This document shows, in pieces, positions 12,555 to 27,968 of a stretch of 31,928 nt of DNA. The position numbers were made by a program, and so were the translations under genes. Position 1 is the first letter of the stretch. Each line of letters begins with the position of its first letter. The stretch is from a virus. The notes beneath the pieces are model-generated. The model saw only the letters and a list, made by a program, of their open reading frames with translations, was not told the origin of the DNA and made no database searches. Location of the stretch: the IMG/VR virus record IMGVR_UViG_3300046522_000097, positions 1-31,928 of that record. One strand, given 5' to 3'.

Positions 12555-12585
12555 GAAAGAAAAGGGAGGGCCCGAAAACCCTCCC
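12555..12585 (-). terminator. intrinsic terminator downstream of the capsid gene cluster
   Basis: On the minus strand GGGAGGG and CCCTCCC form a perfect seven-base stem (12579-12585 with 12564-12570 as the two arms) around an eight-base loop, and the T-rich tract TTTTCTTTCC follows at once. It lies just after the putative decoration gene and before the tail/connector genes, so it would lower expression of the latter relative to the capsid gene unless read through. Confidence 0.8.
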
Positions 12586-21327: not shown

Positions 21328-22797
21328 TCATACTTTGATACGCCCGCGTGATGGCTGTTGAACTGGAGGGGGACGGAACATGCCGGGAGGCGGCTCTGGC
21401 AGCTTGTTGTCCTCATTCGGGACTTTCCCCGAAGTCATGCGGTCCAACAGCTGGCCAACGAGGCCGAGGGCGTCCACTTGGTCGTCATGAACACCCACAG
21501 GGAAACTCATCATTTCGTTGATAAGATCTGCCTTGTATGGTGCGTCCCTGAGAACTCTAAGTCCTCGCATGGCGATACGTCCACGAATTGACTGAGCACG
21601 GACGGCCTTGTCCCCCCTTGTCGGGAACTGCTCTCGGGCCACGTAAGAGCCGGTCTCCAGCATTCTCTTGATAAGGAATGGCCCAACGCCTGATTTGATC
21701 TGGCCTGTTTCTTCACCCCAACCGATCGGCTTCCACTTCCTCACTAGGTCGCAGAACGCATCTACCCACTTGTCTGAACTCGATTGATGGCGCCACAAAT
21801 CCAGGAGCCAAGGATTCCCTTGAGGATCGATGCCGATGATGACATGAACTGTATAATCGCCGCCATCAGCCGTAACTGCGTAGTCAGATGCTCCGTAGAT
21901 GTTCAGCGTATCGAGCGGCGGAAGCTGCTCAACCTCGAAGATCCACTCTTTCTTGAAATAGTCGCCAGTCTCTGGGCTTGGGCTCTGCTGGTAGAGCGCC
22001 GACCAATCACGAGGCGGAAGAGCGCGCTTGATCTGTTCCAGCGCCTCGATATCGTACTGTTCAGGCCACAGCGCTTCGCCAGCGTCATTTATGGCGGGTA
22101 GATTGAGTACTACCCATCCTTCGTGGGAATGCTCAGTCTGTAGCCATCCAGCTAGATCGTCTTCGTGCCAGCGCGTCTGGATGATGACGATGCGGCCGCC
22201 AGGCATCAAGCGCGTGTAGGCGGTCGAAGTATACCAATCCTTTGTCTTCTTGCGGATTATCTCGGATTCAGCATCCTCACGATTTTTGACAGGATCATCA
22301 ATGAGAAGCAGGTGAGCGCCACGTCCAGTGAGAGGACCGCCCACACCCACGGCATAGAATGCGCCTCGCTGTCCTGTGGAATGCTCGTACCCCCCAAGGC
22401 TGCCATCAATATGAAAGCGTTTGGCAGATTTGCTATCATCAGCAAGGGAAACGCCAGGAAAAATGGCTTGATAACCTGCATCCTCGATCTGGTTCTTGAC
22501 CTTTCGCCCGAAGTCATCGGCTAGTTCCTGCGCATATGTGGCCGTCACCACGTAATGTTCTGGGTTCCTGCCAATGTACCAAGCCGGGAAGAACTCCGAC
22601 GCCAACATTGACTTGCCGTGCCTTGGGGGCATCGTGATCATCAGGCGCTTGATATCGCCGCGTTCGACTGCCTCTAGATGCCGAGCGATCAGCCTATGGT
22701 GGTGTGAGTCGCGGTAGCCGGGCCATTGGTATGCTGCGTATGAGATGAGCCGCGAGAACGCGAAGTCCTCACCTGTCGGCGCGTGTTGCGGCTGCAA
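21328..22797 (-). CDS. terL: terminase large subunit
   Basis: The 489-residue protein is a packaging ATPase-nuclease. The Walker-A type loop is PPRHGKS at residues 57-63, the Walker-B strand is LLLIDDP at 163-169, the coupling motif region is QTRWHEDDLAGWL at 207-219, and the nuclease acidic residues are Asp305 (YGASDYA), the Glu pair in GWGEETG (362-363) and HDDQVDA (437-443). All key residues are present. The predicted start is TTG, overlapping the small-terminase-like gene by 29 bases; no ATG is nearer. It drives DNA into the prohead through the portal, encoded next. Confidence 0.93.
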   Translation of the reverse strand: MQPQHAPTGEDFAFSRLISYAAYQWPGYRDSHHHRLIARHLEAVERGDIKRLMITMPPRHGKSMLASEFFPAWYIGRNPEHYVVTATYAQELADDFGRKVKNQIEDAGYQAIFPGVSLADDSKSAKRFHIDGSLGGYEHSTGQRGAFYAVGVGGPLTGRGAHLLLIDDPVKNREDAESEIIRKKTKDWYTSTAYTRLMPGGRIVIIQTRWHEDDLAGWLQTEHSHEGWVVLNLPAINDAGEALWPEQYDIEALEQIKRALPPRDWSALYQQSPSPETGDYFKKEWIFEVEQLPPLDTLNIYGASDYAVTADGGDYTVHVIIGIDPQGNPWLLDLWRHQSSSDKWVDAFCDLVRKWKPIGWGEETGQIKSGVGPFLIKRMLETGSYVAREQFPTRGDKAVRAQSIRGRIAMRGLRVLRDAPYKADLINEMMSFPVGVHDDQVDALGLVGQLLDRMTSGKVPNEDNKLPEPPPGMFRPPPVQQPSRGRIKV

Positions 22798-23065
22798 CGG
22801 CTGCGTCTCGCTGTTCTTTGGTGGTCACGGTCACAGCGAGGTCTCCGGTGATCTGCATCGGAAGAACTTTGCCAAGCAGGCTTAGGAAGGCAGTCGGGTT
22901 AGCGTCTGCTTGCTTCTTGAGATACGTCACCATATTGCCATCGCCAGCTTCTTCAGCGGCTTGCAGGATTGCATCCTTGAGAAGCGCAGTGTGCTTGTTT
23001 GGCGATCCTTTGGGGCGACCCTTGCCTGCATTCCCCTTATTTTCGCCTTTTTTAGGCTCACTCAT
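22769..23065 (-). CDS. small terminase-like DNA-binding protein, 98 aa
   Basis: The ATG at 23065 follows AAGGTGCGCC. The product begins with a Lys/Gly-rich basic arm, then GRPKGSPNKHTALLKDAIL, a helical DNA-contact pattern, then AEEAGDGNMVTYLKKQADAN and FLSLLGKVLPMQITGD. This arrangement is known from proteins encoded immediately before large terminase in alphaproteobacterial phages, often annotated only as hypothetical or DUF5681-like. The position strongly suggests it recognises the packaging site, but it lacks a classical TerS fold signature. Its last 29 bases overlap terL. Confidence 0.6.
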   Translation of the reverse strand: MSEPKKGENKGNAGKGRPKGSPNKHTALLKDAILQAAEEAGDGNMVTYLKKQADANPTAFLSLLGKVLPMQITGDLAVTVTTKEQRDAAVAAATRADR

Positions 23066-23073
23066 GGCGCACC

Positions 23074-23301
23074 TTAGAATATTATTTCTACCGGCCCGTG
23101 GCGGATCATTTCGCAGACGAACCGATAAGCTGTCTCGATCAGGAATTGGTCTGGCTTTTGTGTCCCGCAATACCTGAAATGTAAAGGCATATCGTTGTGC
23201 TTATTCATGGGCGGTCTTCTCCCATATTTGGGGCAGTGAATTTCCCCAACTGGCCCGGCGAGTATTCCCTCTGTGAGGTCCGCACAGCACAACCAAATCA
23301 C
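23074..23301 (-). CDS. small hypothetical protein, possible zinc-ribbon remnant
   Basis: The longer form (75 aa, GTG start at 23301) has LCCADLTEGILAGPVGEIHC followed by PKYG, which resembles a small Com-type zinc ribbon with one cysteine replaced by Tyr. A shorter form (44 aa) starts at ATG 23208 behind GGGAGAAG and reads MNKHNDMPLHFRYCGTQ to a hydrophobic IEIIF-like end. I cannot decide between them. It lies between the NusG-like gene and the terminase genes; nine bases separate it from the latter. Function unknown. Confidence 0.4.
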   Translation of the reverse strand: MIWLCCADLTEGILAGPVGEIHCPKYGRRPPMNKHNDMPLHFRYCGTQKPDQFLIETAYRFVCEMIRHGPVEIIF

Positions 23302-23328
23302 TTGGGCGATTTATATGCTGATTTGGTT
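23291..23328. repeat. inverted repeat near the late gene start
   Basis: AACCAAATC (23291-23299) is the exact reverse complement of GATTTGGTT (23320-23328), around a 20-base spacer. It sits in the short gap after the NusG-like gene and overlaps the GTG start of the next frame. It could be a protein-binding site or RNA hairpin; no T run follows on either strand. Confidence 0.45.
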
Positions 23329-23342
23329 ATGAATTCAAGACG

Positions 23343-23984
23343 TCAAGCGACTTTCCCCAAATCGATTTCGTCACCTGTCAAACTGTCCAGTTCTTTAAGA
23401 ATCGCTTCGACCCGTTCGCGAGCCGGGCCCACCATCGTCTCAATGGCACGAGCGGCCTGCGCCCTCATGTTGATCCTAACGCCTCGCCCCTTCGGTATCA
23501 CCTTGCGCAAGCTGGCACGAAGTTCGAAGATGCGATGAGACTTAGCTTCCTCCTTGCGGCTGTGCTGCTCGAAGCGGAATTTCTGCCGGCGTTCGAAGTC
23601 ATCAAAGACTAGCTGTTCCATCACGCGGTCATGGAAACGGACTGGTCCGTATTCTCTGCCGAACTTGAGGAAGCACATCACCCCATCAGCGCAGCGGGCT
23701 ATCTCGTATTGCTCGTCTCGAATATTGACGAATGCATAACCAAGCAGCAATGGAAGGCGACGCTCTACATATCGGTTATTACGATGATGCTTCGTTTCGA
23801 ACCAGAAAGAAGGCATGAACACGTCAATACCCTCATTGCGGAGATTGCGCTCGACGATGCTCTCGCCCTTCCGGCGCTCTCGCTCGATCTTTTCTTCCTC
23901 AGTCTCATCAGCGGCCGGCTCCAAAGCTGTCGCCATCCGCTGATACCCAGGCTTCGTTCTGATCGCATACCATTTTGCCGCCAT
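23343..23984 (-). CDS. NusG-family transcription factor (putative late antiterminator)
   Basis: The 213-residue product starts WYAIRTKPGYQRMA (residues 5-18), the first strand-helix of a NusG N-terminal (NGN) domain, and continues after an acidic insert (24-40) with ERNLRNEGIDVFMPSFWFE and RRLPLLLGYAFVNI, the remaining NGN core. The C-terminal part is helical, with a degenerate KOW-like end (KGRGVRINM..., ELDSLTGDEIDLGKVA). NusG proteins bind RNA polymerase and control pausing and termination. Placed at the junction between early and late genes it is a good candidate for a late processivity factor, in the position of lambda Q, although that role is inference. Ribosome site GAGGAACAAG. Confidence 0.8.
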   Translation of the reverse strand: MAAKWYAIRTKPGYQRMATALEPAADETEEEKIERERRKGESIVERNLRNEGIDVFMPSFWFETKHHRNNRYVERRLPLLLGYAFVNIRDEQYEIARCADGVMCFLKFGREYGPVRFHDRVMEQLVFDDFERRQKFRFEQHSRKEEAKSHRIFELRASLRKVIPKGRGVRINMRAQAARAIETMVGPARERVEAILKELDSLTGDEIDLGKVA

Positions 23985-23999: not shown

Positions 24000-24662
24000 T
24001 TAGTCGATGATGCTGTGTATCTCTGCTAGACGGGCCACCGCGTATGGGCTTGGCGCCATCTTCCGTCTCCGTGTCACGTGCTTGCGCTGCATCCACTCTG
24101 CCGCCTGTTTATCGTCGCTGGTCATGGACTCGATCTTGCGAACGGCGTGAAGCACCGTGGTATGATCGCGGCCACCGAACAGCCGCCCGATAGCCGGATA
24201 TGACAGGTCTTTGCGCTGCCTGTGGATTTCGTACATGCAGAGCTGGCGCGGATAGACGATGTTGCTTGTCCGATGTTTCCCTTTCAGGTCTTCCCATGTG
24301 ACGCCGGGGAAGTTTTCGAGCACTTCAGCAATGATGTGCTTTGTCAGCCGCCGGGGAATGTATTCCATCTCGTAGAGATCTGCCTTCTGAACGTGCAGGG
24401 CGGCGCGGAGGGCGACATTCTCATGCGCAAGGTCTGCCACCTGTCGCTCTATAGCTTCGTGCCAAACCTTGACGTGCCAGTCGAAATAGAGATCAACGAC
24501 AGCCCAGAGGGGCAAAGGAGCAAGCACGATAGGCTCAGGAGCCGGTTCTGGCTTCCTCGCTACCATCTGCGGGATGAAGCGAGCCTTCGTGGTGGGAACG
24601 CCGAATAGACGCTTCCTCACGTCCCGATAATGCGTCACTAGTTCGGTCGCGTGCATGTTCAT
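24000..24662 (-). CDS. DnaA domain IV protein without ATPase
   Basis: The 220-residue product carries the DnaA C-terminal DNA-binding helix-turn-helix. LCMYEIHRQRKDLSYPAIGR LFGGRDHTTVLHAVRKIE occupies about residues 141-178, with the signature GGRDHTTVLHA at 163-173. The preceding 95 residues do not contain the AAA+ ATPase (no Walker A), so it cannot replace DnaA by itself. It may recruit, titrate or compete with host DnaA at DnaA-box-like sites on phage or host DNA. Sits in the replication group just before the NusG-like gene. Confidence 0.82.
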   Translation of the reverse strand: MNMHATELVTHYRDVRKRLFGVPTTKARFIPQMVARKPEPAPEPIVLAPLPLWAVVDLYFDWHVKVWHEAIERQVADLAHENVALRAALHVQKADLYEMEYIPRRLTKHIIAEVLENFPGVTWEDLKGKHRTSNIVYPRQLCMYEIHRQRKDLSYPAIGRLFGGRDHTTVLHAVRKIESMTSDDKQAAEWMQRKHVTRRRKMAPSPYAVARLAEIHSIID

Positions 24663-26387: not shown

Positions 26388-26418
26388 AAGAAAAACCCGG
26401 AGGGCATTACCCCTCCGG
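26388..26418 (-). terminator. intrinsic terminator in the leftward early operon
   Basis: On the minus strand CCGGAGGG and CCCTCCGG form a perfect eight-base stem with a six-base loop (GTAATG), followed by GTTTTTCTTC. It lies in the 95-base gap between the histidine-rich protein gene and the HTH gene. It should stop most transcripts entering the replication and NusG-like genes unless overridden. Confidence 0.85.
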
Positions 26419-26837: not shown

Positions 26838-27968
26838 TCAGGTTCTGACCGTTGGGAATTGGAAGGAATCCACAGGGAGGCCGGTTAGCCACGCCTGAGC
26901 CTCAAAGACTGTGTTGATTTCGGGAGGTACGCCGATGGCGAACTCTCTTTTCGTGCCACACTGAGCATGAAGGAAACGGCTTTTGCGGTCCAAGTCTGGC
27001 AACTGCACTTCGACCAAAGCGCCATGCTCAAGGTCTTCGTGCTCGTCGATGACTGCGGCCTGCAGTTCACGTAGGACGTTGTGCCAGCCGACTATTTCAA
27101 GCGCAGCTCGGCGCTGCTCGATATTCTGCCATGTCAAAGCCGTCTTCGCAGTCAGGCTGGCCTTGTCGTCAATCCATTCACGAGGAACACGCGTTCCATG
27201 CCATGCATAGACGCCGAAGCCGTCGCGATATTCGATTGCTGGTCCCATATCGCAGTGCAGGCGGTTTTGGTCGTCGCGGCGTAGTGTCTTTGGTCGATCT
27301 GTAATGATCGCGGCGCCAGAGAAAAACCATACCCAACCGCACGACTGAGCAATGCGCAAAAGTGGATCGATATTCTCCGTGTTGGGAAGATTGCAAACGC
27401 GGCGAAAGAACGCCAACCACGACAACCATCCGGCCTCGTGTTGGCTATAGAAAGCCCGAGAGACCTGAGCCCTGACCTGATCCCTGACCTGATCCCTGAC
27501 CTGAGCCCCGACCTGATCCCAGACCTGAGCCCTGACCTTATCCCCGACCTGATCCCAGACCTGATCCCTGACCTGATCCCTGACCTGATCCCAGACCTGA
27601 TCCCTGACCTGATCCCTGACCTGATCCCAGACCTGATCCCCGACCTGATCCCAGACCTGATCCCTGACCTGATCCCTGACCTGATCCCAGACCTGATCCC
27701 AGACCTGATCCCAGACCTGAGCCCCGACCTCCTCACCAAGCCGCGTGTTCTTCAGTATCGCGGCACCTATGGCGCCCTCATGCGGGGAAGCGAGGCGGAT
27801 GAAGAGCTTAGGCGCTGGAAGACCTGCGACCGCGTATGCGTCCTTTACGGCCTGTTCTGCAGCGTCAAAATCTGCTGGTTCCGTCGATAGACCATGGCGC
27901 AGGAATTCGTCGCGTATGATTGGTATCTGCGCTTCCTGCTCGGGGGTTAGCTTGGTGATTTTCGTCAT
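26838..27968 (-). CDS. DUF6745-like protein with tetrapeptide tandem repeat
   Basis: The 376-residue protein starts with a helical 60-residue part (PEQEAQIPIIRDEFLRHGLS), then LASPHEGAIGAAILK. Next come 22 tetrapeptide units of the form QV-[WRG]-[DA] at residues 84-171. The second half matches the DUF6745 pattern: WVWFFSGAAIITDRPKTL, then HCDMGPAIEYRDGFGVYAWHG, REWIDDK, NIEQRRAALEIVG, and a C-terminal TVFEAQAWLTGL. The repeat is in frame on both strands in all frames, which explains the spurious frames around it. Activity unknown. Strong RBS (GAGGAGAGGAA). Confidence 0.75.
   Translation of the reverse strand: MTKITKLTPEQEAQIPIIRDEFLRHGLSTEPADFDAAEQAVKDAYAVAGLPAPKLFIRLASPHEGAIGAAILKNTRLGEEVGAQVWDQVWDQVWDQVRDQVRDQVWDQVGDQVWDQVRDQVRDQVWDQVRDQVRDQVWDQVGDKVRAQVWDQVGAQVRDQVRDQVRAQVSRAFYSQHEAGWLSWLAFFRRVCNLPNTENIDPLLRIAQSCGWVWFFSGAAIITDRPKTLRRDDQNRLHCDMGPAIEYRDGFGVYAWHGTRVPREWIDDKASLTAKTALTWQNIEQRRAALEIVGWHNVLRELQAAVIDEHEDLEHGALVEVQLPDLDRKSRFLHAQCGTKREFAIGVPPEINTVFEAQAWLTGLPVDSFQFPTVRT
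27456..27719. repeat. 12-bp tandem repeat (22 units) inside the DUF6745-like gene
   Basis: The core unit is CAGGTCTGGGAT or CAGGTCAGGGAT on the minus strand, encoding QVWD or QVRD, with a few QVGD, QVRA and QVGA variants toward the edges. There is a higher order of WD-RD-RD triplets (36 bp). The unit length keeps the frame, so copy number can change without breaking the protein. Confidence 0.9.

Follow-up and report, generated by a model that had tools for sequence, protein, structure and literature searches.

A phage-encoded NusG-family protein and a structured RNA element at a putative late promoter: a candidate late-antitermination system of rhizobial phages

The virus record analyzed here over its full length (31,928 bases, hereafter the window) comes from a virus of soil bacteria which encodes its own version of NusG. 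The 213-aa protein is a phage-encoded member of the NusG family, and its gene is followed by an RNA element that comparison with relatives identifies as structured and covarying and that seems to begin at the expected start site of a putative late promoter or a few nucleotides after it (Table 1). We regard it as likely that the protein is a specialized NusG paralog acting as a processive late antiterminator, which is loaded at this promoter-proximal RNA element. The protein family as such is already known and annotated as NusG-like in Sinorhizobium and Rhizobium phages; what is new are the surroundings of the gene, namely the predicted helical end of its product, the RNA element and the promoter.

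Table 1. Features of the window that bear on the NusG-like gene and the region following it.
Feature	Coordinates	Strand	Remarks
DnaA C-terminal-domain gene	24000-24662	(-)	upstream neighbor; near the nusG-like gene in relatives too
Phage NusG-family gene	23343-23984	(-)	213 aa, ATG start; NGN (residues 1-118) and predicted helical C-terminus (119-213)
Helical C-terminal region (predicted), coding part	23346-23630	(-)	residues 119-213; K165-G166-R167 invariant
-35-like hexamer TTGAAT, putative late promoter	23333-23338	(-)	17-nt spacer to TATAAA
-10-like hexamer TATAAA, putative late promoter	23310-23315	(-)	element start at 23301
Inverted repeat	23288-23331		arms 23288-23300 and 23319-23331; flanks the -10 hexamer
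Structured RNA element	23209-23301	(-)	GUGAUUUG, P1, PM, P2, P3, 3' block GAAGACCGCCC; directly 3' of the NusG-like gene
Element core (covariance model R1 match)	23250-23301	(-)	61.5 bits, E 5.1e-10 in 1.28 Mb
P3 hairpin	23228-23249	(-)	TTGGGG-AAATTCACTG-CCCCAA
44-aa ORF	23074-23208	(-)	directly 3' of the RNA element; motif R(Y/F)CGT..PDQFL
Terminase small-subunit-like gene	22769-23065	(-)	probable ATG at 23065; first packaging gene, late block
Terminase large subunit (TerL)	21328-22797	(-)	PHROG 38, E 4.3e-114
Intrinsic-terminator-like site	12564-12585	(-)	late block; ~10.6 kb downstream; clearest candidate read-through target

Genomic context and relatives

The NusG-like gene is the last gene of a replication-side block encoded on the same strand, in which it is preceded by genes for a DUF1064 protein, a replication-initiator-like protein and a DnaA-C protein, and downstream of it lie the terminase genes and other structural genes. 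This agrees with the first-pass annotation, which had described the gene as the last early-type gene before terminase, and the order is kept among relatives: TerL was located on the same strand 0.8-5.3 kb downstream of the NusG-like gene in 67 of the 67 relatives in which it was found. The window TerL barely matches the TerLs of these relatives, yet the gene placement is constant. The assignment of the gene at 22769-23065(-) as terminase small subunit is probable, as judged from its position and from relatives. The upstream neighbor encodes the DnaA C-terminal DNA-binding domain only, as is the case in many relatives, and further upstream the protein encoded at 26838-27968(-) has a long tandem WDQVRDQV repeat.

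A search of viral contigs with the single window protein returned no relative; with an alignment as query, 117 relatives were obtained. The named ones among the relatives are Sinorhizobium phage phiLM21 and Rhizobium phages RHph_N28_2 and RHph_TM3_3_3, with 44-49% identity, and all of them carry DnaA-C before the NusG-like gene (with an HNH gene in between in two) and terminase after it. The closest phage as judged by portal and coat genes is L007.

The NusG-like protein

The NGN domain that had been proposed at first pass is well recognized: Pfam NusG (PF02357) scores 36.2 bits with an E-value of 8.7e-9 against a cut-off of 22.2 bits, and PHROG 25909, 'transcription antiterminator', matches residues 3-205 with an E-value of 3.6e-71. 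The AlphaFold2 model, based on an alignment of 44 relatives and with a mean pLDDT of 83.7, places the NGN domain first, followed by helices at residues 119-162 (44 residues), 173-181 and 187-203. Structural comparison with NusG and RfaH, as suggested in the same annotation, identified RfaH in a transcription complex as the top match of the NGN fold (Z 11.7, rmsd 2.2, 99 residues) and a NusG chain with Z 10.3. By its predicted fold and its conservation, the NGN domain would be expected to contact host RNA polymerase much as in RfaH and NusG. The acidic insert noticed earlier is present at about residues 20-42; in the alignment it is common to the phiLM21 group and absent from other relatives.

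By contrast, the degenerate KOW-like end described at first pass did not hold up in this form: the C-terminus is predicted to be all-helical and to lack a KOW beta-barrel. Pfam detected no KOW in the 213-aa protein, with the caveat that it also misses the evident KOW of L204, one of the phage-type NusGs with a KOW-like end present in other rhizobial genomes (L204, L205, L210 and L213). In an hhalign comparison of the window family with this KOW-bearing family, the NGN domain and the long helix align up to the first KOW strand, where the alignment stops; the last aligned segment, 'IPKGRGVRIN' in the window family and 'FPSGQSVFVV' in the KOW-bearing family, corresponds to the start of KOW. This suggests that the window family lost the KOW barrel beyond the first strand; the degenerate KOW of the first-pass annotation may reflect this. 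With regard to RfaH-type switching of KOW between alpha-hairpin and beta-barrel, the C-terminus folded in isolation is again helical, this being a prediction only. The motif around LPKGR in this region is nearly invariant among relatives. A Foldseek search of the C-terminus alone against the PDB gave no match below an E-value of 0.001, which does not imply a novel fold, and the family alignment profile matched none of the PDB sequences.

A structured RNA element after the gene

Within 170 bases after the stop codon a common block, GUGAUUUG .. GCGGACC(hairpin)GGGAAUACUCG.CGG.CC(hairpin)GAAA.GCGCC, was found in the window and in 83 of 83 close relatives examined, in a degenerate form in L034. 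RNAalifold recovered only 7 pairs from an unanchored alignment, and the alignment was re-anchored on GTGATTTG. The nested helices P1, PM and P2 show 95.2% standard pairs, compared to 30-57% in slid-partner controls, and their covariation amounts to 36 double-change cells as compared to 10.9 ± 2.6 in shuffles (0 of 500 reach this value), although such shuffle-based counts overstate independence since the relatives share kinship. Among 55 unique sequences P3 takes the form of 31 different stems, with a mean score of 5.95 versus 2.33 when shuffled, and its loop is often of the UUCAC type. Minimum-free-energy folding of single sequences was no more stable than that of shuffles (z of +0.62 for the window), so the structure is drawn from comparison only, and Rfam gave no gathering hit in the window, the best E-value for 23050-23400 being 2.5. 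The motif of the 44-aa ORF that follows the element is common to the phiLM21 protein encoded after its own element.

A putative promoter in front of the element

Just before the element, the pattern TTGnnn-N17-TAnnnT is present in 53 of 56 unique sequences, whereas random windows contain it in 0.3% and shuffles in 0.4% of cases; the window promoter, which is without the final T, is thus one of the three not matching it strictly. The promoter overlaps with codons of nusG in the majority of relatives. Coding constraint on nusG does not explain it, since the promoter-like pair is still present where the element stands away from nusG, as in L088, L089 and L007 (with a 16-nt spacer in L007). Given that the putative promoter ends just before the element, the element would head the late transcript.

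The first-pass annotation had reported a 9-bp inverted repeat close to 23.3 kb and had suggested that the protein may load on RNA polymerase there. The repeat is real, but its arms are 13 nt long and 92% complementary. As an RNA hairpin (z of -2.97) it was dropped: its upstream arm is located within the promoter, and hence it would not be transcribed whole from there. Arms of the type AAATCA..TGATTT recur around the promoter in several, but not all, relatives and could be a DNA operator. That the repeat brackets the -10 hexamer in the window, and that similar arms are present in several relatives, would fit a scheme in which the protein has an early role in general elongation or host takeover, while the block consists only of the late promoter and a repressor operator. 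Yet the repeat is missing from some relatives, and the conserved block reaches ~90 nt past the promoter and covaries as RNA; we consider this scheme very improbable. Loading close to 23.3 kb is retained as the best-supported reading, with the covarying element and the promoter located directly 3' of the gene, but the likely site is the element at 23209-23301 and not the inverted repeat. Neither the conserved RNA element nor the promoter had been noticed at first pass.

Linkage of the element and the protein gene

A cmsearch with R1 over 78 loci (1.28 Mb) yielded 73 hits, one in each of the 71 family loci and two extra, both of which are further-downstream copies in two family loci; R1 had no hit in the 7 non-family records. 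In the converse test, in which IMG/VR was searched for the DNA pattern, a NusG-like gene was located at most 1.5 kb upstream for 84 of 87 testable independent hits and at ~2 kb for two more. Some genomes contain element copies with no phage-type NusG gene nearby (G124, which is a weak hit, and G258:C37). In E. coli, the KOW domain of NusG contacts Rho and the ribosome, and the lack of KOW in the window protein might be seen in favor of RNA alone causing antitermination by direct binding to the polymerase, like HK022 put, while the protein acts separately, for instance by displacing host NusG and uncoupling Rho. The two-stem architecture right after the promoter, as in putL (PMC9378689), points in the same direction. 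However, element and protein gene are linked near one-to-one in both directions, which is left unexplained in this case because put needs no phage protein, and action of the RNA alone appears quite improbable to us.

The element is found 15-62 nt from the nusG stop codon in nearly all relatives, and a small ORF follows it directly in phiLM21 and in the window. Both observations would be compatible with the element regulating in cis, either the mRNA it belongs to or the gene behind it, and acting on stability or translation or by autoregulation through the NusG-like protein, instead of a late loading site. This we hold to be rather unlikely: the element has its own promoter in front, the gene after it varies, and copies are present behind the HNH gene inserted after nusG in L088 and L089, where promoter and element moved along with it, behind a short ORF in L007 (+190 nt), at 1-2 kb in L042, L078 and L204, at 4.1 kb in L205 and further away in G213.

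Elements analogous to this candidate loading site also appear to accompany diverged, KOW-bearing phage NusG relatives; these were compared by eye and by pattern, with no calibrated model. In L245, L246 and L248, the diverged KOW-bearing proteins are followed within ~100 nt of the stop codon by TGATTT, P1, a short inner loop replacing P2, P3 and the 3' block. The elements of L251, L252, L253 and L007 represent a further subtype, and L007 was not found by R1 although the arrangement is present 190 nt after its NusG gene. KOW-type genes with same-strand copies from ~1 to nearly 30 kb downstream were detected in G213, G267 and G064. One contig, G213:C76, harbors two phage-type NusG genes together with four copies of the element, at distances of up to nearly 30 kb downstream of a NusG gene. 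The inner hairpin of L251, L252 and L007 apparently has UNCG-type loops (UUCG, UGCG), a feature that recalls LoaP; this UNCG-capped hairpin was not recovered when single sequences were folded.

Terminators and downstream RNA genes

Two intrinsic terminators, at 12.57 and 26.4 kb, had been named in the first-pass annotation. Both stem-loops with T-runs exist (Table 1 and 26397-26418(-)), but the total of such sites in the window, 15 versus 20.0 expected from shuffles, is not above chance, and the 26.4-kb site, being located upstream of nusG, is no possible target for a factor loaded at 23.3 kb. The terminator scan of the window found none between the element and TerS. Of 69 unique relatives, 26 have terminator-like sites in the 600 nt following the element, as compared to 3.5% of random windows, and the scan detected none there in the other 43; part of this enrichment may be an effect of non-coding sequence, as 17% of the same 600-nt windows have such sites on the opposite strand. 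In most of the L011 group they start ~50 nt past the core, and the L245 element is followed at once by GCCGCCTTTCGAGGCGGCTTTTTC, which has a textbook terminator shape.

Other RNA genes are located in the same region of relatives. The Rfam sRNA ar35, an alphaproteobacterial sRNA, was recognized with 101 bits at L141:780-917, directly downstream of the element of a prophage and with its own terminator, and ar35-like sequence begins behind the element in L024, L043 and L078; sRNAs of the ar35 family may belong to the late-control regions of prophages. Moreover, tRNA-Met(CAT) follows the element on the same strand in many relatives (L002, L011, L021, L064, L072, L085 and L204), together with tRNA-Gly and tRNA-Thr in L072. 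The tRNA-Met of phiLM21 is placed on the + strand by ARAGORN and on the other strand in the deposited record.

Proposed mode of action and comparison with known systems

The role of a late antiterminator, put forward at first pass from the position of the gene, is now the best-supported reading of the sequence data, given the fixed place before terminase, the RNA element and the promoter. Following this, we propose that the NusG-like protein would be made last from the early/replication transcription unit, and that it would attach to host RNA polymerase through the NGN domain, in the RfaH/NusG manner. A sigma70-type promoter overlapping or just after the nusG 3' end would start the late transcript, and covariation indicates that its leading ~95 nt fold into the conserved element. 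The protein may recognize this nascent RNA, perhaps via its basic helical C-terminus, join the elongation complex at the element and ride into the terminase, head and tail genes, so that intrinsic termination, Rho termination or both are suppressed; as long as the protein has not accumulated, transcripts from the late promoter would end early. Polymerase binding, RNA recognition by the protein and read-through are the steps that we infer. With a confidence only slightly better than even, we extend this to a two-part late-antitermination system of rhizobial phages, in which a NusG paralog with a helical domain in place of KOW is recruited by a multi-helix nascent RNA, the nusG-like gene, promoter and element are kept as a unit before different late-gene blocks, and KOW-bearing phage NusGs have sister elements.

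Processive antitermination in phages is known from lambda N, Q, HK022 put and a few small proteins, whereas the NusG paralogs with defined loading sites are RfaH (DNA) and LoaP (RNA). If our reading is true, both lines would gain a KOW-less NusG paralog whose recruiter is a structured RNA at a late phage promoter, and it would provide a late-gene switch for rhizobial prophages with many natural protein-RNA pairs for study; the element could serve as a ready marker for the late promoter in these prophages. RfaH, itself a specialized NusG paralog and the best match of the NGN fold, loads at ops DNA and has a fold-switching KOW as its C-terminal domain. Ops-like DNA sites with one mismatch occur in the window at chance level (5 versus 5.07 expected), a comparison to be read with the proviso that the recognized sequence could differ.

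The phiLM21-type NusG-like anti-terminators (PHROG 25909) belong to the same family and take the same place after DnaA-C and before terminase, but they are annotated by homology only. The antiterminator is mentioned in a paper on phiLM21-like prophages, which does not refer to the promoter, the RNA element or the absence of KOW (PMC12429752), and the RNA element was not described in the literature searched, which left out most subscription papers. One alphaproteobacterial late antiterminator, GafZ of the Caulobacter gene transfer agent, is of a different kind (PMC11150451). Lambdoid Q is encoded last before the late genes and loaded near the late promoter (PMC7171158), and thus resembles the window protein in gene position and in the proposed loading close to a late promoter; however, the site bound by Q is DNA (the QBE, at a sigma-dependent pause), and Q is no homolog of NusG. 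In HK022, the two-stem nascent put RNA just downstream of a phage promoter brings about antitermination (PMC9378689), but put needs no protein of its own and its targets are early genes, whereas the window element goes together with a NusG-like gene and with late genes. LoaP of Bacillus is a NusG paralog that needs a leader RNA hairpin, the structured RNA heading a long operon with intrinsic terminators after it (PMC12691694). What the window has in common with LoaP is the pairing of a NusG paralog with structured RNA in front of a long operon. Contrarily, the hairpin read by LoaP is of the UNCG type and the operons under its control are antibiotic operons, while the window protein is phage-borne and predicted to lack KOW and its element is multi-helix, with non-UNCG P2 loops in the window as well as in close relatives. 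Taken all together, the best reading by analogy is that the proposed system would work like Q, put and LoaP, but from different parts.
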